A DNA stretch of 64,000 nucleotides, taken from positions 100,213 through 164,212 of the forward strand of contig NZ_JOIU01000018.1 of NCBI RefSeq assembly GCF_000720135.1, written 5' to 3'. Positions 39,820 through 51,133 of this stretch are shown here, piece by piece. A program made the translations under genes and the position numbers. The stretch's first letter is position 1. The number at the start of each line of letters is the position of its first letter. The notes below the pieces were generated by a model. That model worked only from the letters and a program-made list of their open reading frames with translations, was not told where the DNA came from and did no database searches. The stretch is from Streptomyces sp. NRRL S-1022 (GTDB lineage Bacteria > Actinomycetota > Actinomycetes > Streptomycetales > Streptomycetaceae).

Positions 39820-40181
39820 GTCTGACCGTGCCGGGGACGTCGGCCGCCGTACGGACGAACCACTTGGGCAAGCCGTATGACACGGGACCTCTGCCGACGC
39901 TCTAGCGCTCGTACCGCTGAGGGGTCCCTCCTGCCGTCGTACGATCACTGCCGTACGGCCTTGGAGGGCTGTCGGGTCGGAGCCGATCGGGCCACCGACC
40001 GGGCATCCTCATGCGTGCGGCCTGTCGGGACACGTCGAACATCGTCGACGCAACTCTGGCAGGCGCATTACCACCATACCCCGGATTCGCGCACATGCGA
40101 TGGCCGAATTGGACACGTAGTCGTGGTCACACTGGCTGACCTGGGCTTGAGCGGGGCGTGGAGCGGACTATTGTGCGCCTC
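39820..40181. other. 362-bp divergent intergenic region
   Basis: No gene supported. It must carry the promoter and leader of the helicase on the minus strand and the promoter of the ferritin-like gene. I see no strong hairpin in the helicase leader. Confidence 0.4.
40147..40174 (+). promoter_or_regulatory. Promoter for a probable leaderless gene
   Basis: TTGAGC (40147-40152), 16-nt spacer, TATTGT (40169-40174); the next ATG is 7 nt downstream with no SD. Confidence 0.5.
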
Positions 40182-40928
40182 ATGACTAGCTCTGACAAGC
40201 CTGAGAACGCCTCCGCCGCATCCGCCGCGCCCACCGGTGTCGCCGCCCAGGACTGGGCGCAGGCGTCCGCCGAGCCGCAGTACCGCGCCGCCGTCGTGGA
40301 CCTGCTCGGCGCGCTCGCGTACGGGGAGCTGGCGGCGTTCGAGCGGCTGGCGGAGGACGCCAAGCTGGCGCCGACCCTCGCGGACAAGGCGGAGCTGGCG
40401 AAGATGGCCTCGGCCGAGTTCCACCACTTCGAGCGGCTGCGCAACCGGCTGACCGAGATCGGCGAGGAGCCGACGGCCGCGATGGACCCGTTCGTGGCCG
40501 CGCTCGACGGCTTCCACAAGCAGACGGCGCCCTCGGACTGGCTGGAGGGCCTGGTGAAGGCGTACGTAGGCGACTCGATCGCGAGCGACTTCTACCGGGA
40601 GGTCGCGGCCCGGCTCGACTCCGACACGCGCGAGCTGGTGCTGGCCGTCCTCGACGACACCGGGCACGCCGGGTTCGCGGTGGAGAAGGTGCGGGCCGCC
40701 ATCGACGCCGACCCGCGCGTGGGCGGCCGGCTCGCGCTGTGGGCGCGGCGGCTGATGGGGGAGGCGCTGTCGCAGTCCCAGCGGGTGGTCGCCGACCGGG
40801 ACGCGCTGTCCACGATGCTGGTGGGCGGGGTGGCCGACGGGTTCGACCTCGCGGAGGTCGGGCGGATGTTCTCGCGGATCACGGAGGCGCACACCAAGCG
40901 GATGGCTGCGCTGGGCCTCGCGGCCTGA
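40182..40928 (+). CDS. Ferritin-like-fold protein (MiaE-related)
   Basis: A 248-residue four-helix protein. Iron-ligand-type residues are spread over helices: ALAYGELAAFERLAED, MASAEFHHFERL (ExxH), YVGDSIASDFYREV and LDDTGHAGFAVEKV. Family relatives include tRNA-(ms2io6A)-hydroxylase, but actinobacterial members are a distinct group (Rv3210c type). ATG 40182 appears leaderless. It is divergent from the helicase, as in mycobacteria. Reaction unknown. Confidence 0.82.
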   Translation: MTSSDKPENASAASAAPTGVAAQDWAQASAEPQYRAAVVDLLGALAYGELAAFERLAEDAKLAPTLADKAELAKMASAEFHHFERLRNRLTEIGEEPTAAMDPFVAALDGFHKQTAPSDWLEGLVKAYVGDSIASDFYREVAARLDSDTRELVLAVLDDTGHAGFAVEKVRAAIDADPRVGGRLALWARRLMGEALSQSQRVVADRDALSTMLVGGVADGFDLAEVGRMFSRITEAHTKRMAALGLAA

Positions 40929-42883: not shown

Positions 42884-43095
42884 GGTGGGCTCCCTTCCTA
42901 CGAACGACGTCCCTGGGTGGAGCAGGGGCCACACGCGGGTGCCCTCTGTACGAGCCTAGGAGACAGCCGATCCGGACGCCATGCCGTCGGGCCCGTTCGC
43001 CGCACCGGATCTCCGGCTCCGCGGGGGTTCACGCTGTGACGGCGAACACAGGCGAACATATGAGCCAGTGCGTGATCACCTCGTAACATTGCCGC

Positions 43096-44088
43096 ATGTC
43101 TTCGACCGAGTCGCCGTCCGTGCCGGCCGCCAGTGTGCTTCCCAGGGTGGCGCCCGTCCGGGTCGGCGAGGGCGAGCGGCTGCGGTCCGTCGGCCTGCCC
43201 GGAGTCACCCTGTCGGTGCGCTCCCGTCCTCCCGTGCGCGAGGGCCTGCCGCCCGCGCTGTACGTCCACGGGCTGGGCGGCTCCTCGCAGAACTGGTCGC
43301 TCCTCATGGCCGAGCTGGACGGGGTCGTCGACAGCGAGGCGGTCGACCTGCCGGGCTTCGGCGACTCCCCGCCACCGGACGACGGCGACTACTCCGTCAC
43401 CGGGCACGCGCGCGCGGTGATCCGCTGTCTCGACGAGGCCGGCCGCGGCCCGGTGCACCTCTTCGGCAACTCGCTCGGCGGCGCGGTCGCCACGCGCGTG
43501 GCCGCCGTACGGCCCGACCTGGTGCGTACGCTCACCCTCGTCTCGCCCGCCCTGCCCGAGCTGCGGGTGCAGCGCACCGCGGTGCCGACGGGGCTGCTCG
43601 GCGTGCCCGGCATCGCCGCCCTCTTCACCCGGCTCACCCGGGAGTGGACGGCCGAGCAGCGGGTGCGCGGGGTCATGGCGCTCTGCTACGGCGACCCCGG
43701 GCGGGTCTCGCCGGAGGCGTTCCGGCTGGCCGTGGAGGAGCTGGAGCGGCGGCAGCGACTGCCCTACTTCTGGGACGCGATGGCCCGCTCCGCGCGCGGG
43801 ATCGTCAACGCCTACACGCTGGGCGGACAGCACGGGCTGTGGCGCCAGGCCGAGCGGGTGCTGGCCCCCACGCTGCTGGTCTACGGCGGCCGGGACCAGC
43901 TCGTCGGCTTCCGCATGGCCCACCGGGCCGCCCGCGCCTTCCGCGACTCCCGCATGCTGTCCCTGCCGGACGCCGGGCACGTCGCGATGATGGAGTACCC
44001 GGAGCTGGTGGCCGGCGCGTTCCGGGAGCTGCTGGCACACGCGAACGGCTCCGGCGAGGCCGCCGGCGCCGCGGGCGCGAGGGGCTGA
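43096..44088 (+). CDS. Alpha/beta hydrolase
   Basis: A 330-residue hydrolase. Oxyanion motif YVHGLGGSSQNW, nucleophile Ser in LFGNSLGGAVA, Asp in VYGGRDQLVGF, His in PDAGHVAMME. The GNSLGG elbow is typical of MhpC-like C-C bond or ester hydrolases. Ala/Gly-rich tail of about 15 residues. ATG 43096. The DUF3152 gene begins 8 bp after its stop, so the two are probably cotranscribed. Confidence 0.88.
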   Translation: MSSTESPSVPAASVLPRVAPVRVGEGERLRSVGLPGVTLSVRSRPPVREGLPPALYVHGLGGSSQNWSLLMAELDGVVDSEAVDLPGFGDSPPPDDGDYSVTGHARAVIRCLDEAGRGPVHLFGNSLGGAVATRVAAVRPDLVRTLTLVSPALPELRVQRTAVPTGLLGVPGIAALFTRLTREWTAEQRVRGVMALCYGDPGRVSPEAFRLAVEELERRQRLPYFWDAMARSARGIVNAYTLGGQHGLWRQAERVLAPTLLVYGGRDQLVGFRMAHRAARAFRDSRMLSLPDAGHVAMMEYPELVAGAFRELLAHANGSGEAAGAAGARG

Positions 44089-44096
44089 GGGCCGGG

Positions 44097-45416
44097 GTGG
44101 GACGCCACAGCCGACGCGGACCGGCCCTGAAGGGCGACGCCGCGGACATAGCCGCCGGGCGGGGGGACGGCCGGGGCGCACGCTCCGGCGACGAGGGTGC
44201 CGGGGGTGTGCCGGGATCTCCCGGCGGCGCTCCGGCGCGGGACGCCGACGGCACCCCCGCGCGGGGTGTGCCGCGGCTTGCGGACGCCACCCCGGCACGC
44301 GGTGTGCCGAAGTCCGGCGGCGGTGCGCCGGCCCCGGAGGCGCGTGGCGGGCACCCCGAGCAGCGGGAAGCCGGGGGCGGCTGGGGCGAGTTCGGTGCCC
44401 GGGCGGCCGGTGGCGCCGGGTCCGGTGCCGTGCTGCCGCGGCAGCGGCAGGCGGAGCCGGGGGCCCCGCGTCCGGGCGGGTCGCGGCGCCGTCCCGGCCC
44501 GCGGCAGGAGTACCTCGAAGCCTTCGAGGGTGCCGGCGAGCGCGGCCGGTCCCGTGCGGAGAACGGGACCAGCGAGGAGCCCGCGGCCGGTGCCGGCGTG
44601 CCCGCGCAGCGCGGCGGGGCCAGGGGGCGGGCCTTCACCGGCATCGCGGCGGCCGCCGTCACCACCGTGCTCGCGGTGGTCGTCGCCGGACAGGTGACCA
44701 AGGCGCAGGACGACGACGGCGTGCGCGCGCGGTCCGTCACCGGCCCGGCCTCCGGCACGGGCGCCCCCGGTGACACCTCCGGCGTGCCGGCCGCCACCGC
44801 ACCGGGCGCGGCCGCGCTGACGTACGACCAGAAGATGGCCGAGAAGTACCCCCTGAGCGCCGAGCTGGCCGGGCCGGGGAAGTTCGACGCGGTGCCCGGT
44901 TTCGACAAGGCGCCCGGTACCGGGCAGAAGTACCGTTACCGCGTCGATGTCGAGCAGGGTCTGGGGCTGGACGGCGCGCTGTTCGCCGAGGCCGTGCAGC
45001 AGACCCTGAACGACAAGCGCAGCTGGGCGCACGGAGGTGCCCTCGCCTTCGAGCGGATCTCCTCCGGCAAGCCCGACTTCGTGATCACGCTGGCCAGTCC
45101 CGGCACCACCGCCAAGTGGTGCGCCAAGTCCGGTCTGGACACCACGGAGGACAACGTCTCCTGCGACTCGGCCGCGACCGAACGCGTGATGATCAATGCG
45201 TACCGGTGGGCTCAGGGAAGCAGGACATACGGTGACCGGATCCATGCGTACCGGCAGATGCTGATCAACCACGAGGTCGGCCACCGGCTCGGCCACGGCC
45301 ACGTCAGCTGCCGCAAGGACGGCGAGCTCGCGCCGGTCATGCAGCAGCAGACCAAGTTCCTGGACCACGATGGCATCCACTGCCGGGCCAACCCGTGGCC
45401 GTTCCCCAGGAGTTGA
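44097..45416 (+). CDS. DUF3152 membrane-anchored zincin-like protein
   Basis: A 439-residue protein: about 180 residues of charged Gly/Pro-rich cytoplasmic sequence, one transmembrane segment (AFTGIAAAAVTTVLAVVVAG), a linker, and an external DUF3152 domain. The domain holds INHEVGHRLGHGHVSC, an HExxHxxGHxH zinc site of the metzincin pattern, and four cysteines. GTG 44097 is 5 nt after GAGGG. Corresponds to Rv3207c. Proteolysis has not, to my knowledge, been shown; the conserved catalytic Glu argues for it. Confidence 0.85.
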   Translation: MGRHSRRGPALKGDAADIAAGRGDGRGARSGDEGAGGVPGSPGGAPARDADGTPARGVPRLADATPARGVPKSGGGAPAPEARGGHPEQREAGGGWGEFGARAAGGAGSGAVLPRQRQAEPGAPRPGGSRRRPGPRQEYLEAFEGAGERGRSRAENGTSEEPAAGAGVPAQRGGARGRAFTGIAAAAVTTVLAVVVAGQVTKAQDDDGVRARSVTGPASGTGAPGDTSGVPAATAPGAAALTYDQKMAEKYPLSAELAGPGKFDAVPGFDKAPGTGQKYRYRVDVEQGLGLDGALFAEAVQQTLNDKRSWAHGGALAFERISSGKPDFVITLASPGTTAKWCAKSGLDTTEDNVSCDSAATERVMINAYRWAQGSRTYGDRIHAYRQMLINHEVGHRLGHGHVSCRKDGELAPVMQQQTKFLDHDGIHCRANPWPFPRS

Positions 45417-45436: not shown

Positions 45437-45466
45437 TTGACATCCCGGCGTATGTTCGTTCATATT
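45437..45466 (+). promoter_or_regulatory. Promoter of the leader-peptide/ABC operon
   Basis: TTGACA (45437-45442), 18-nt spacer, CATATT (45461-45466). The first ATG is 7 nt downstream, so the transcript is expected to be leaderless. This AT-rich patch stands out from its surroundings. Confidence 0.7.
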
Positions 45467-45473
45467 TCTGCTC

Positions 45474-45569
45474 ATGTGGTCTAGTCATGCCGTCTGCAGC
45501 AGCGCCGCCATCGAGCTGGCGCTCATCGGCGTGACCGCGCTCTGCGTGGCCGACATCCACTGTCGCTGA
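45474..45569 (+). CDS. Leaderless Cys-containing leader peptide (31 aa)
   Basis: The peptide starts MWSSHAVCSSAAIELALIG and ends TALCVADIHCR. It has three cysteines, two of them near the C-terminus. The ending ELALIGVTALCVADIHCR matches what I recall as the Ms4533A-type Cys-rich leader peptides of actinobacteria, which act as cysteine-responsive attenuators. No SD; its ATG coincides with the expected transcription start. It precedes an intrinsic-terminator-like hairpin and the ABC importer genes, so it most likely senses cysteine (or tRNA-Cys charging) and regulates the operon. Confidence 0.75.
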   Translation: MWSSHAVCSSAAIELALIGVTALCVADIHCR

Positions 45570-45614
45570 CGCCGCCCTCCAGGCGTTCGCGTCGCGACCC
45601 TTCTTCTCCCTTCC

Positions 45615-45640
45615 GTCCGTGACCGGTGTCACGGACTTTT
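45615..45640 (+). terminator. Attenuator hairpin before the ABC importer
   Basis: GTCCGTGAC-CGGT-GTCACGGAC followed by TTTT: a 9-bp perfect stem plus T-tract, rare in this GC-rich genome, 46 nt after the leader-peptide stop and 122 nt before the substrate-binding protein start. Confidence 0.75.
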
Positions 45641-45761
45641 CGACGACCCGGCGCCGGGGCCGACGTCTGCCCGCAGTCGTCTCACTCCTCGTCCACATGT
45701 CTCACCCATCGAGAAATCCTCGATCAACACCGCCACGTCACCCCGAGAGGTCGTCATTCCG

Positions 45762-47480
45762 ATGCGTCATCCGTCCGTCATAGCGCGCCGCGTGGCAGCG
45801 GCATCCGTCAGCCTGGTCGTGGCAGCGGGCGCCGCCGCCTGCGGCCCGGAGGACAGCGATGCCAAGGGCTCCGGTGGCGACTCCACGCCCCACAAGGGCG
45901 GCACGCTCACGGTCCTGAACTCCGAGCCGCAGACCGACTTCGACCCCGCGCGCCTGTACACCTCCGGCGGCGGAAACGTCCCCTCGCTGGTCTTCCGCAC
46001 CCTCACCACGCGCAACCGGGAGAACGGCGCGGCCGGCGCCAAGGTCGTCCCGGATCTCGCCACCGACACCGGACGCCCCAACAAGGACGCGACCGTGTGG
46101 ACGTACACCCTGAAGAAGGGCCTGAAGTACGAGGACGGCACGCCGATCACCTCGGCCGACGTCAAGTACGGCGTCGAGCGCTCCTTCGCCCCCGAACTCT
46201 CCGGCGGAGCTCCCTACTTGCGGGACTGGCTGGTCGGCGCCGCCGACTACCAGGGGCCGTACAAGGACAAGAAGGGCCTGTCCGCGATCGAGACGCCGGA
46301 CGCCCGGACCATCGTCTTCCACCTGAACAAGCCCGAGGGCGAGTTCCCTTACCTCGCCACGCAGACGCAGTTCACCCCGGTGCCCAAGAGCAAGGACACG
46401 GGCACCAAGTACGAGTCGCACCCCGTCTCGTCCGGCCCGTACAAGGTCGTCAAGAACGAGAACGACGGCGAGCACGTCCTCCTGGAGCGCAACACGCACT
46501 GGTCGGCGGCGACCGACGCGGAGCGCAAGGCGTACCCCGACACCATCGACGTCCGCTCCGGCCTCGACTCCTCGGTGATCAACCAGCGGCTGTCCGCGTC
46601 CCAGGGCGCGGACGCCGCCGCCGTCACCACCGACACCAACCTCGGCCCGGCCGAACTCGCCAAGGTGACCGGCGACAAGGAGCTGGCCGCGCGCGTGGGC
46701 ACCGGCCACTTCGGCTACACGAACTACCTCGCCTTCAACCCGCGGGTGAAGCCGTTCGACAAGCCCGAGGTGCGCCAGGCGATCGCGTACGCCATCGACC
46801 GGTCCTCCGTGGTCAACGCGGCCGGCGGCAGCGCCCTCGCCGAGCCCGCCACCACCTTCCTGCCGAACCAGAAGTCCTTCGGCTACACGCCGTACGACCC
46901 GTTCCCGGCGGGCTCGTCCGGCGACCCGGCGAAGGCCAGGGAGCTGCTGAAGCGGGCCGGTCACGGCAACGGTCTCACCATCACGCTGACCCACTCCAAC
47001 AACAAGGACTTCGAGACCAGCCCGGAGATCGCCACCGCCGTCCAGGACGCGCTCAAGAAGGCCGGCATCACGGTCAAGCTGCAGGGCCTGGAGGACAACG
47101 ACTACCGGGACAAGATCCACAGCGTGAAGACCGAGCCCGGTCTCTTCCTCGCCCACTGGGGTGCCGACTGGCCCTCCGGCGGCCCCTTCCTCGCCCCCAT
47201 CTTCGACGGCCGGCAGATCGTCAAGGACGGAGCGAACTTCAACACGGGCCAGCTCGATGACAAGTCGGTCAATGACGAGATTGACGCGATCAACAAGTTG
47301 ACCGACCTCGACGCCGCCGCCCAGCGGTGGGGCGCACTGGACAAGAAGATCGGCGACAAGGCCCTCGTCGTGCCGCTGTTCCACCCGGTCTACAAGCGCC
47401 TGTACGGCAAGGACGTCAAGAACATCGTCATCAGCGACTGGACCGGCGTGCTGGACATCTCCCAGGTCGCGGTGAAGTAG
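45762..47480 (+). CDS. Peptide-type ABC transporter substrate-binding lipoprotein
   Basis: A 572-residue SBP_bac_5 family protein. Signal with lipobox (VVAAGAAACG, Cys at about residue 27). Family landmarks: GGTLTVLNSEPQTDFDPARLY, YTLKKGLKYEDGTPITSADVKYGVER, YKVVKNENDGEHVLLERNTHW, and VRQAIAYAIDRSSVV. It captures oligopeptides or similar ligands (glutathione, nickel complexes) outside the membrane. First structural gene after the Cys leader peptide, which points to a sulfur-containing ligand; this is inference. Confidence 0.92.
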   Translation: MRHPSVIARRVAAASVSLVVAAGAAACGPEDSDAKGSGGDSTPHKGGTLTVLNSEPQTDFDPARLYTSGGGNVPSLVFRTLTTRNRENGAAGAKVVPDLATDTGRPNKDATVWTYTLKKGLKYEDGTPITSADVKYGVERSFAPELSGGAPYLRDWLVGAADYQGPYKDKKGLSAIETPDARTIVFHLNKPEGEFPYLATQTQFTPVPKSKDTGTKYESHPVSSGPYKVVKNENDGEHVLLERNTHWSAATDAERKAYPDTIDVRSGLDSSVINQRLSASQGADAAAVTTDTNLGPAELAKVTGDKELAARVGTGHFGYTNYLAFNPRVKPFDKPEVRQAIAYAIDRSSVVNAAGGSALAEPATTFLPNQKSFGYTPYDPFPAGSSGDPAKARELLKRAGHGNGLTITLTHSNNKDFETSPEIATAVQDALKKAGITVKLQGLEDNDYRDKIHSVKTEPGLFLAHWGADWPSGGPFLAPIFDGRQIVKDGANFNTGQLDDKSVNDEIDAINKLTDLDAAAQRWGALDKKIGDKALVVPLFHPVYKRLYGKDVKNIVISDWTGVLDISQVAVK

Positions 47481-47484
47481 CACC

Positions 47485-48525
47485 GTGAGCGAGGCACTTG
47501 CCGTCGTCGAGACCGCCGGGACGGACACCTCCGTCCCGGCGGCCTCGGGGGCACGTCAGTTCTGGCGGCGGCTGCGGGCGCAGCGCGCCGCCCTGGTCGC
47601 CGCGGCCGTCGTCGCGCTGCTCGTCCTGATCGCGCTCGCCGCGCCGCTGCTCACCGCCCTGGAGGGCCAGGACCCCACCACCTACCACCCCACCCTGATC
47701 GACTCCGCGCGCGGCGGCGTGCCCATCGGCTCCCTCGGCGGCGTGAGCGCCGACCACTGGCTGGGCGTCGAACCGCAGACCGGACGCGACATGTTCGCCC
47801 GGCTGGTCTACGGCGCGCGGGTCTCGCTGGGCGTGTCGCTGGGCGCAACCGTCGTCCAGATCCTGATCGGCCTCGCCATGGGCGTGGCCGCGGGCCTGGG
47901 CAACCGCTGGGTCGACCTCGTCCTCAGCCGCGTCACCGACATCTTCATCGCCATGCCCCTGATGGTCATGGCGCTCGCGCTGCTGGCCATCGTGCCGGCC
48001 GGCTTCCCGCGGCCCGTCCTCGTCGCGCTGATCATCTCCCTCGTCGCCGGCTGGTCCACGATGGCGAAGATGGTGCGCGCGCAGACCCTCGCCCTGAAGA
48101 ACCTCGACTACGTCTCCGCGTCCCGGCTGAGCGGCTGGAGCACCTGGCGGACCGCCGTGCGCGAGCTGCTCCCGGGCCTGGCCGCGCCGGTCATCACGTA
48201 CGCCGCGCTGCTGATCCCGTCGAACATCAGCGCCGAGGCGGCCCTGTCCTTCCTCGGCGTCGGCGTGCAGCCGCCCACCCCGTCGTGGGGCCAGATGCTC
48301 ACCTCCGCCGACGTCTGGTACCAGGCGGCCCCGCAGTACCTGCTGCTGCCCGCGCTCGCCCTGTTCGTCACCGTGTGCGCGATGACCGTCCTCGGCGACG
48401 GCGTCCGCGTCGCCCTCGACCCGCGCGCCGCCTCCCGCCTGCGCGTCGGCACCGGCCGCAAGCGGGAGGCCCGTGCCGGGGCCGCCGTACCCGCCGGCGA
48501 ACCGAGGAAGGAGGAGCGGCCGTGA
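47485..48525 (+). CDS. Peptide ABC transporter permease (DppC type)
   Basis: A 346-residue permease with an N-terminal membrane helix, an OppC N-terminal region, and five further helices. The EAA loop reads ASRLSGWSTWRTAVRELLPGLAAPVITYAA. The motif TVVQILIGLAMGVAAGL is typical. GTG 47485 starts 4 bp after the SBP stop. C-terminal basic tail of about 30 residues. Confidence 0.92.
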   Translation: MSEALAVVETAGTDTSVPAASGARQFWRRLRAQRAALVAAAVVALLVLIALAAPLLTALEGQDPTTYHPTLIDSARGGVPIGSLGGVSADHWLGVEPQTGRDMFARLVYGARVSLGVSLGATVVQILIGLAMGVAAGLGNRWVDLVLSRVTDIFIAMPLMVMALALLAIVPAGFPRPVLVALIISLVAGWSTMAKMVRAQTLALKNLDYVSASRLSGWSTWRTAVRELLPGLAAPVITYAALLIPSNISAEAALSFLGVGVQPPTPSWGQMLTSADVWYQAAPQYLLLPALALFVTVCAMTVLGDGVRVALDPRAASRLRVGTGRKREARAGAAVPAGEPRKEERP

Positions 48526-49520
48526 ACGGCTTCACCGGCTTCGTCCTGCGCCGGATCACCGGCGCCGTGATCACCCTGTTCGTCCTCTCGGTGATCATCT
48601 ACGTCGTCTTCTACGTCACCCCCGGCGACGTCGCCCAGATCACCTGCGGCCCGCGCTGCTCCCCGGCCCAGGTCCACCAGGTGGCCCAGCAACTCCACCT
48701 CGACGACCCGCTGTACGTGCGCTACTGGCACTTCCTGCAGGGCATCTTCGTGGGCCAGGACTTCTCCACGGGCACCTCCGTCGAGCACTGCGCGGCGCCC
48801 TGCCTCGGCCAGTCGTACCAGACCGGCCAGCAGGTCACCGACATCCTCCTGGCCAAGCTGCCGGTCAGCTTCTCGCTGGTGCTCGGCGCGATGGTGATCT
48901 GGCTCGTGCTCGGCATCGGCACCGGCGTGCTGTCCGCCTGGCGGCGCGGCCGGCTCTCCGAACGCCTCCTGACCGCGATCACCCTCGCAGGCGTCGCCAC
49001 GCCCGTCTTCGTCATCGGCCTGGTGCTGATGATCGTCGTCTGCGGCGAACTCCAGCTGCTCCCCTTCCCGCAGTACGTGAACCTCACCGACGACCCCGAG
49101 CAGTGGGCCTGGAACCTGCTGCTGCCCTGGCTCTCCCTCGCCCTCATCGAGGCGGCCAACTTCGCCCGGCTGACCCGGGCGTCCATGCTGGAGACGCTGG
49201 CCGAGGACCACATCCGCACCTTCCGGGCCTACGGCGTCAGCGAGCGCGCGGTCATCGCCCGGCACGCGCTGCGCGGCGCGACGGCCTCCGTCATCGCCCT
49301 GAACGCGGTCACCTTCGGCTCGGCCGTCGGCGGCGCCGTCCTCACCGAGACCCTGTTCGGCCTGCCCGGCATCGGCCAGGAGCTGGTGCACGCGGTGAAG
49401 GTCGTCGACCTTCCGGTGGTCGTCGGCCTGGTCCTGGTGACCGGCTTCTTCGTGGTCCTCGCCAACGCCGTCGCGGACGTCCTGTACGCGGTGGCCGACC
49501 GACGGGTGGTGCTCGCATGA
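48522..49520 (+). CDS. Peptide ABC transporter permease (DppB type)
   Basis: A 332-residue permease. GTG 48522 overlaps the preceding stop and has AAGGAGGAG upstream. Start GFVLRRITGAVITLFVLSVIIYVVFY and EAA loop TFRAYGVSERAVIARHALRGA are diagnostic. The first periplasmic loop contains two unusual Cys pairs (CGPRC and CAAPC) that could form disulfides. The order DppC before DppB is the reverse of the common one. Confidence 0.92.
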   Translation: MNGFTGFVLRRITGAVITLFVLSVIIYVVFYVTPGDVAQITCGPRCSPAQVHQVAQQLHLDDPLYVRYWHFLQGIFVGQDFSTGTSVEHCAAPCLGQSYQTGQQVTDILLAKLPVSFSLVLGAMVIWLVLGIGTGVLSAWRRGRLSERLLTAITLAGVATPVFVIGLVLMIVVCGELQLLPFPQYVNLTDDPEQWAWNLLLPWLSLALIEAANFARLTRASMLETLAEDHIRTFRAYGVSERAVIARHALRGATASVIALNAVTFGSAVGGAVLTETLFGLPGIGQELVHAVKVVDLPVVVGLVLVTGFFVVLANAVADVLYAVADRRVVLA

Positions 49521-51133
49521 GCCTGGTGGAAACGGCGGACACGAACCTGGTCGACGTGACCGGTCTGACCGTCGAGTTCGGCGCCCTGCGCGCCGTCGAC
49601 AGCCTCTCCTTCAGCCTGGCGAAGGGCGCCGCCCTGGCCCTGGTCGGCGAGTCCGGCTCCGGCAAGTCCACGGTCGCGGGCGCCCTGCTGGGCCTGCACC
49701 GGGGCACCGGGGCCCGGGTCGGCGGCTCGGTGCGGGTGGCCGGCACCGACGTACAGGCGGCCTCCGACGAGGAACTGCGCCGGCTGCGCGGGGCCAGGGC
49801 CGCCATGGTCTTCCAGGACCCGCTGTCCTCCCTCGACCCGTACTACGCGATCGGCGACCAGATCGCCGAGGTCCACCGCGTCCACGCGCGCGTGCCGCGG
49901 CGCGCCGCACGCGCGCGTGCCGTGGAGGTGCTGGAGCGGGTCGGGATCCCGGACGCGGCGCGGCGGGCCCGGTCCCGCCCGCACGAGTTCAGCGGCGGCA
50001 TGCGCCAGCGCGCCCTGATCGCCATGGCCCTCGCCTGCGAACCCGACCTGCTGATCGCCGACGAGCCGACCACCGCGCTCGACGTCACCGTCCAGGCGCA
50101 GATCCTCGACCTGCTGCACGGGCTGCGCGAGGAGACCGGCATGGGGCTGCTCCTCGTCACCCACGACGTCGGCGTGGCCGCCGAGAGCGTGGACGACATC
50201 CTCGTCATGCGGCACGGCAGGGCCGTCGAACGCGGCCCGGTCGGCACGGTCCTCGCCGCGCCCGCCGAGGCGTACACCCGTGAACTGCTCGACGCCGTCC
50301 CGCGCGTGGACGCCCGCCGGACTGGCTCCCCGGCCACCGGCGAGGTGGTCCTGGAGGCCGCCGGCGTACGGCGCGAGTTCGGGCGCGGCAAGCGGGCCTT
50401 CGCCGCCGTGGACGACGTCTCGGTGACCGTCCGGCGCGGGGAGACCCTCGGCGTGGTCGGCGAGAGCGGCAGCGGCAAGACCACGCTCGGCCGCATGCTC
50501 GTCGGGCTGCTGGAACCCACCGCCGGCGAGATCCGCTACCAGGGAAGCCCGCACACCGGGGTGAACCCGGCCGTGCAGATGGTCTTCCAGGACCCCGTCT
50601 CCTCCCTCAACCCGCGCCGCAGCGTCGGCGAGTCCGTCGCCGACCCGCTCCGCGCGCGCGGGGAGTCCGACGAGCAGCGCATCCGGGGGCGGGTGAGGGA
50701 ACTGCTGGAGCGCGTGGGCCTGGACGGGGCGCACTACGACCGCTACCCGCACGAGTTCAGCGGCGGGCAGCGCCAGCGCATCGGCATCGCGCGGGCGCTC
50801 GCCGCCGAGCCGCGCGCCATCGTCTGCGACGAGCCCGTCTCCGCCCTCGACGTCACCACCCAGGCCCAGGTGGTCGCCCTGCTCGGCGAACTCCAGCGGG
50901 AACTCGGCCTGGCGCTGGTCTTCATCGCGCACGACCTCGCCGTCGTCCGCCAGGTCAGCGACCGGGTGGCGGTGATGCGGGGCGGCCGGCTCGTCGAGTA
51001 CGGGCCCGCCGACGAGGTGTACGACAGCCCGCGGGAGGCGTACACCCGGCAGCTCCTGGCCGCCGTACCCGCGCTGGACCCGGAGCTGGCGGCCCGGCGC
51101 CGCGCGGCCCGGCGCACACCGGCGGCGGCATAG
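49517..51133 (+). CDS. Fused double ABC ATPase (DppD-DppF type)
   Basis: A 538-residue protein with two complete nucleotide-binding domains in tandem. First: Walker [10 protein letters not shown], signature [19 protein letters not shown], Walker [13 protein letters not shown]. Second: [39 protein letters not shown]. Each ends in a peptide-transporter C-terminal segment ([12 protein letters not shown] and [12 protein letters not shown]). ATG 49517 overlaps the DppB stop. One polypeptide replaces the usual two, so 1:1 stoichiometry is built in. Last gene of the operon, followed by a terminator. Confidence 0.94.

Follow-up and report, generated by a model that had tools for sequence, protein, structure and literature searches.

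A leader peptide with an invariant UGU codon and terminator-type anatomy suggests cysteine control of a peptide-family importer operon in Streptomyces

The 64,000-nt stretch of Streptomyces sp. NRRL S-1022 DNA analysed here (the window; contig NZ_JOIU01000018.1, positions 100,213 to 164,212 of the forward strand) carries a short leader open reading frame (ORF) with Cys codons, situated between a sigma-70-type promoter and an operon for a peptide-family ATP-binding cassette (ABC) importer. An original prediction, made from the letters alone, had described this element as a cysteine leader peptide with an intrinsic attenuator. The promoter, the leaderless-type ATG, the 31-codon ORF, the hairpin followed by TTTT and the importer genes were all confirmed by reading back the sequence. 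The locus comprises the following features:

45437..45466, + strand: sigma-70-type promoter TTGACA-N18-CATATT; its -10 element ends 7 nt 5′ of the leader ATG, which suggests a leaderless start
45474..45569, + strand: leader ORF, 31 codons and stop, Ms4533A family Cys-rich leader peptide (NF042937, 49.5 bits)
45507..45563, + strand: conserved peptide core, codons 12-30 (AIELALIGVTALCVADIHC), delimited by pN/pS, tree and alignment
45561..45563, + strand: invariant sensor codon Cys30, TGT in 140/140 leaders
45562..45598, + strand: predicted hairpin P1; the 5′ arm contains bases 2-3 of the sensor codon, Arg31, the stop and the following bases, the 3′ arm is 45582-45598
45615..45640, + strand: terminator-like hairpin of 9 bp with loop CGGT, followed by TTTT; not called by a stricter terminator scan
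45642..45648, + strand: GACGACC, complement of GGTCGTC (45749-45755) beside the Shine-Dalgarno sequence of the next gene; possible sequestering helix, in near relatives only
45745..45750, + strand: Shine-Dalgarno (SD) sequence GAGAGG of the solute-binding protein (SBP) gene, from sequence read-back
45762..47480, + strand: family-5 extracellular solute-binding lipoprotein (SBP_bac_5), 572 aa, ATG at 45762
47485..48525, + strand: OppC-type permease
48522..49520, + strand: OppB-type permease, likely start GTG at 48522, overlapping the preceding stop
49517..51133, + strand: one protein with two ABC ATPase domains (OppD-OppF type), likely start ATG at 49517

The leader codons (45474-45566, followed by TGA at 45567-45569) encode the peptide MWSSHAVCSSAAIELALIGVTALCVADIHCR, in which Cys occupies positions 8, 24 and 30, the last of them two codons before the stop. 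The match to the NCBIfam profile NF042937 extends over residues 2-31 and exceeds the cut-off of 31 bits, which establishes family membership; the window leader is the sole copy above the cut-off in the genome. A scan of the leader against NCBIfam at E values up to 10 yielded NF042937 only, and the cis_reg_atten profile NF042934 was not matched.

The promoter elements were read back as TTGACA (45437-45442), an 18-nt spacer, CATATT (45461-45466) and 7 nt to the ATG at 45474. The pattern TTGACA-N16-19-NANNNT-N4-9-ATG occurs once in the window, whereas shuffled sequences contained 0.02 on average (2/100 shuffles with one); the promoter scan likewise found one site vs 0.1 in shuffles. Among 105 leaders from the genus of the window (own genus; locus L164 was left out of the promoter and SD-pairing counts and of the tree), 93 have a -10-like element 4-9 nt 5′ of the ATG, in 77 cases at 7 nt, and both hexamers are present in 92. 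The leaders of family f4, which we take to be probably the Mycobacteriaceae, have the -10-like element in 18/21 cases and a -35 match in only 1/21. The spacing at the window leader fits an mRNA that starts at the leader AUG. An 811-codon ORF with a C-terminal DUF3152 domain (window 42981-45416) stops only 57 nt before the leader ATG.

NF042937 matches were found in 95/199 own-genus genomes (92 above cut-off) and in 40/394 genomes of the class (36 above cut-off). The own-genus set comprised 106 of 107 loci, with G121, a weak match without the motif, excluded. The weak class matches that were read included two with the motif (G232, G210), two without it (G264, G268) and G360 of family f18, described below; G311, G335, G356 and G406 lay outside this reading. 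All 106 own-genus leaders with the motif (the window's included) are located upstream of an ortholog of the SBP gene with 74-100% identity over the compared part, the closest homologues of the window SBP reaching 98%. The distance from leader to SBP gene ranges from 18 to 313 nt, the shortest having a doubtful start. Searches for both leader and SBP gene in 37 own-genus genomes found the two together in 21 and missing from the other 16, with no discordant case. In family f50, of the same order, 12/12 SBP matches (54-61% identity) are preceded by a leader of the same type; three of these leaders, from genus g141, have a single Cys codon, immediately 5′ of the stop. The prediction of a cysteine leader peptide with a leaderless-type promoter before the importer is supported.

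In family f4 the leader precedes a gene for a sulfate-binding protein in 21/21 loci, as read by eye, and the four downstream genes that were scanned all scored above the cut-off of TIGR00971 (sulfate ABC transporter substrate-binding protein). In G360 a sulfatase-like gene follows the leader, its arylsulfatase and choline-sulfatase matches being below the cut-offs. Since the same leader sits on differing genes of sulfur acquisition, the window importer likely serves sulfur supply under cysteine control; this is the best argument that we have for the assignment. It upholds the predicted link to a sulfur source, whereas glutathione or cystine-containing peptides as the substrate are a guess. The best solved-structure match of the SBP by sequence is an oligopeptide-binding protein of the clavulanic acid cluster (286 bits), which names no ligand, and GsiB-type scores were far below the cut-off. 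More generally, a leader shared between a sulfate-binding-protein gene and a peptide-type importer lets a transporter be assigned to sulfur uptake in a way that is open to test.

The three Cys codons of the window leader, which had been thought to matter together, differ sharply in conservation. Cys8 is present in 4/106 own-genus leaders and Cys24 in 70/106, whereas Cys30 is found in 106/106. With two of the three codons varying among relatives, and with one Cys in the g141 leaders, a three-codon sensor was rejected; the predicted conservation of Cys codons stands for codon 30 only. This codon is TGT in every leader: 106/106 in the own genus, 21/21 in f4, 12/12 in f50 and 1/1 in f18 (140/140 in total). 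The remaining Cys codons of the own-genus leaders are TGC in 93 cases and TGT in five, with TGC in 17/17 cases where Cys directly follows the sensor. Likewise, TGC prevails in the first 250 codons of the own-genus SBP genes (110 vs 3) and in six genes of the window (24 vs 2). On a tree of the 105 own-genus loci the sensor codon underwent no change. These counts indicate that selection keeps the exact codon UGU, not UGC. Within the NF042937 leaders the contrast between UGU and UGC is limited to the own genus, because in f4 the Cys adjoining the sensor, where present, is also TGT (17/17). The codon before the sensor (window 45558-45560) went through 27 amino-acid changes on the own-genus tree, yet its third base is C in all of the 104 codons tabulated for the 105 loci; in the remaining locus, L161, it is also C by eye. 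In family f13 the leaders L204 and L205 end YRLSLIGMHTHAVSDVLC(H/S)WR with TGT as the sensor, and the next gene may start MR(A/V)LPRPR, as judged by eye.

The UGU rule recurs, by the same kind of count, in a second leader family, NF042934, which gave 334 matches and was present in 41/41 own-genus genomes. The set examined consisted of 78 loci, namely 77 of the 334 matches, mostly better-scoring ones, and one weaker match from the own genome; L217 and L221, at contig ends, were excluded. The last Cys of the profile match, taken as the sensor, is TGT in 77/78 loci, and the other Cys codons are TGC in 78 cases and TGT in five. The sole exception, L243 (leader at 1501), has Gly at the sensor position and Cys (TGC) elsewhere, and stands before a glutathione S-transferase (GST)-like gene; it is perhaps decayed or differently tuned. 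NF042934 leaders do not have a structure peak at the sensor codon, whose third base is unpaired in 46/78 folds. Outside the window the genome contains ten leaders of this type (L239-L248), nine of them above the cut-off and most before sulfur or cysteine genes. If the following gene is taken to be the first ORF of 140 or more codons on the same strand, they precede genes for a cysteine dioxygenase, a pyridoxal phosphate (PLP) enzyme that reads as a cysteine synthase, a nitrite/sulfite reductase, a rhodanese, an SsuC-like permease (below cut-off), two luciferase-type monooxygenases, a flavin reductase, the GST-like protein and a ROK regulator. The ten leaders may constitute a cysteine attenuator regulon.

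The peptide itself is constrained as well. The ratio of nonsynonymous to synonymous differences (pN/pS; uncorrected, up to 1500 pairs per comparison) was 0.39-0.61 in the core and 1.04-1.44 in the N-terminal codons; in these and the sensor counts G360 was kept apart from f4 (21 + 1 loci), and in the counts of conservation by position the two were pooled (22 loci). On the tree the codons of L-8, G-6 and V0 changed 22, 16 and 12 times, respectively, without a single amino-acid change. Because codons change while amino acids do not, and because pN/pS is low, the core LALIGVxxxxVADIxC is judged from these comparisons to be selected as a peptide. A constraint on the RNA exists too, since in the own genus the codons GCG at -9, GTG at -5 and ACC at -4 are frozen at the third base. 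Both in the own genus and in f4, the leader's first half (window 45474-45540) is more structured than shuffles despite lacking conservation at the peptide level. The conservation of the nascent chain suggests that the peptide itself, and not codon counting alone, may matter to an amino-acid attenuator.

RNA structure was evaluated in 102 of the 106 own-genus loci (L164 and L153, with doubtful SBP starts, and L128 and L129, with leaders running past the usual stop, were excluded) and in 21 f4 loci. Sliding folds, compared with dinucleotide-preserving shuffles here and for NF042934, peaked at the end of the leader (55 nt from -15 relative to the stop), with a mean z of -2.29 in the own genus and -2.04 in f4. 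This peak corresponds to P1, in which the last codons and the stop form part of the 5′ arm. A second peak was seen in the first half of the leader (z -1.61 and -1.43), and further ones at +30 in the own genus (z -1.42) and at +60 in f4 (z -1.24). No known RNA family was found over the window at gathering thresholds; one match in the leader region was far below its gathering score.

The terminator-like hairpin of the window begins 45 nt after the stop codon and is composed of the arms GTCCGTGAC (45615-45623) and GTCACGGAC (45628-45636), the loop CGGT and TTTT at 45637-45640. In the own genus the best downstream hairpin is followed, within 8 nt, by 2.99 T on average vs 1.83 expected (p = 2.5e-10, 102 loci), and at least four T are present in 44/102 loci. 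In f4 T was not enriched after hairpins (2.00 vs 1.76, p = 0.49, 21 loci). The exact 9-bp hairpin is common to close relatives only; hairpins vary among clades, and one universal terminator sequence was rejected. Pairing of the P1 3′ arm with the terminator 5′ arm, scored against single-base shuffles, gave a mean z of -0.65 in the 86/102 loci with a usable hairpin, and ranged from -1.1 (window) to -2.1 in 12 near loci with a hairpin at +41-45; with the terminator 3′ arm pairing was not better than in shuffles (mean z -0.09). As modelled, the pairing of P1 and terminator fits, without proving, the classical choice between helices.

From these comparisons we propose that the locus is a cysteine-responsive, ribosome-mediated attenuator of the peptide-family ABC importer, which would probably import a sulfur source; we give this reading a probability of roughly 0.58. 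The mRNA would begin at or beside the leader AUG, which would allow immediate loading of a ribosome. With ample Cys-tRNA the ribosome would decode UGU30 and Arg31, terminate and depart, P1 could fold, and the 9-bp hairpin with its TTTT would then stop transcription. When Cys-tRNA is scarce, the ribosome would wait at UGU30. A stalled ribosome covers about 12 nt past its codon, which was used as an assumption here. The P1 5′ arm would be blocked and the P1 3′ arm left free to capture the terminator 5′ arm, and RNA polymerase could run on into the importer operon. Both the nascent LALIGVxxxxVADI and the choice of UGU over UGC probably lengthen the wait or raise its sensitivity.

Several observations weigh against this proposal. 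The T-run of the window is only TTTT, and a terminator scan requiring at least five T in 8 nt gives no site here; the predicted T-tract terminator is sustained as a hairpin with a T-run of a kind enriched in the genus and not in f4, and weakened by the shortness of the run, the negative scan and the restriction of the 9-bp hairpin to close relatives. The 99-nt fold of 45567-45665 is unexceptional (z -1.17). Fewer than four T follow the best hairpin in 58/102 own-genus loci, and the 5′ flank is also T-rich, to a lesser degree (2.40; at least four T in 20/102 loci vs 44/102 on the 3′ side). Hairpin sequence and position differ from clade to clade. The predicted antiterminator pairing is weak and not unique: a leader-internal segment comes close to it in pairing with the terminator arms (mean z -0.51 for the 3′ arm and -0.42 for the 5′ arm), so that either helix might act as antiterminator. 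Finally, the loci are related and the counts are not independent events.

The control could act on translation instead. In mycobacterial polycysteine leaders a stalled ribosome is said to expose the ribosome-binding site, and the leader region of the window could similarly hide that of the SBP gene. The window fold pairs GACGACC (45642-45648) with GGTCGTC (45749-45755), both elements occur in 31/42 near relatives (near-clade mean z -0.90), and the free SD sequence is predicted to be mostly paired, with accessibility below 0.3 in 81/102 loci. Blocking the ribosome footprint, however, left SD accessibility flat over the 102 loci (0.184 to 0.186, compared with 0.191 for control blocks), with a rise of more than 0.05 in 12 loci and a fall in 13; this is an equilibrium folding model, and a kinetic effect is beyond its reach. 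Outside the near relatives SD pairing was no better than in single-base shuffles (mean z 0.12, 62 loci), and T is enriched after the hairpins of the own genus. Exposure by a stalled ribosome was unsupported by the modelling and SD pairing was rejected as a general feature; we consider translational attenuation unlikely. The untranslated stretch after the leader might alternatively load Rho unless a stalled ribosome shields it, as was proposed for mycobacterial cys leaders without terminators in the accessible part of PMC1262725. The region 3′ of the leader is C-rich by eye, yet the own-genus loci have structured hairpins with T enrichment, which makes Rho-dependent attenuation decidedly improbable. 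Least probable of all is that the 31-aa product acts in trans as a small protein and not as an attenuator alone: its hydrophobic core is conserved at the peptide level, but the leader stands directly 5′ of the SBP gene in the own genus and f50 and before sulfate-binding or sulfatase-like genes in the other loci read, its N-terminal codons are without peptide-level constraint, and the constraint on UGU would be left unexplained.

A separate question is whether RNA pairing of the third base, rather than decoding, keeps UGU fixed. The P1 5′ arm overlaps the sensor, the third base pairs with A in 50/102 and with G in 7/102 own-genus folds, and some other codons, mentioned above, are likewise frozen at the third base. 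On the other hand, this base is unpaired in 45/102 own-genus and 8/21 f4 folds; in 12/21 f4 folds its partner is G, for which C would be better; and the NF042934 leaders keep UGU without a structure peak. Pairing fails on these grounds to explain UGU and we hold it to be an improbable cause, which leaves decoding as the simplest cause, for instance through slower reading by wobble under a shortage of Cys-tRNA. If, as we assume, tRNA-Cys occurs with the GCA anticodon only, UGU would be read by wobble. A MiaE-like tRNA hydroxylase gene lies about 4.5 kb upstream (window 40158-40928), probably by coincidence; MiaE acts on tRNAs that read codons starting with U, which would include tRNA-Cys.

The two leader families tentatively suggest a wider rule, to which we give a little less than an even chance: Actinobacterial cysteine leaders may share a codon-specific sensor, a single UGU at which the ribosome is made to wait by the nascent peptide before it, VADIxC or RxAxAIC according to the family. 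If so, the leader would act as an arrest peptide under the control of Cys-tRNA, switched by one synonymous base, and poly-Cys runs would be additions in some lineages and not central to the device. In the UGU rule, selection bears sharply on a single synonymous base. The literature searched held no account of the Streptomyces importer leader, of the UGU rule or of selection on the core at the peptide level; it did not include Canestrari et al. 2020, a paper that may contain the UGU rule.

Among known systems, the closest is the Ms4533A family itself, to which the window leader belongs by sequence and with which it shares, like most relatives, the -10-like element 7 nt before the start. It differs in preceding a family 5 peptide-type importer, whereas the f4 leader precedes a sulfate-binding-protein gene, and in being followed by a hairpin and a T-run. 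As to the Cys-rich character of the family, one of the three Cys residues of the window leader is conserved and the related g141 leaders have one Cys; 17/22 leaders from outside the genus have an adjoining second Cys. NF042934 leaders are similarly short, with UGU nearly always as the last Cys codon and cysteine or sulfur genes downstream in the own genome, but their peptide is HVDLxRxAxAIC-like and their sensor codon lacks a structure peak.

The leaderless polycysteine ORFs of mycobacteria, as far as the available text of papers citing Canestrari et al. 2020 goes (PMC13236596, PMC9031893), also place Cys codons at the start of mRNAs for cysteine or sulfur genes, and are described there as acting by translational attenuation through contiguous Cys codons. 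The precedent drawn from them holds for a leader with Cys codons and not for the mechanism: the window leader is without contiguous Cys codons, and exposure of the ribosome-binding site was unsupported by modelling of window-type loci. A 2005 survey (PMC1262725, in the part accessible) lists candidate leaders with Cys codons near the stop, 5′ of cys operons; unlike the window leader they have Cys-codon runs, are without conserved terminators and come only from Mycobacterium, P. acnes and B. longum. The Rhodobacterales cysS attenuator uORFC-8-2 resembles the window in that an ORF with Cys codons is followed by an intrinsic terminator, but its Cys codons are tandem and UGC is dominant, according to the available portion of that 2021 survey (PMC8632094).

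With the classical ribosome-mediated transcription attenuator the window shares a leader ORF containing a codon for the amino acid presumably sensed, here Cys30. Its candidate for the intrinsic terminator is the 9-bp hairpin with TTTT, negative in the strict scan and accompanied by genus-wide T enrichment, and its candidate for the mutually exclusive antiterminator is the weak pairing of the P1 3′ arm, nearly equalled by the leader segment. Here a known family of cysteine leaders occurs in a new setting; the anatomy is of the terminator type, and two constraints were unexpected, one on the UGU codon and one on the nascent peptide.

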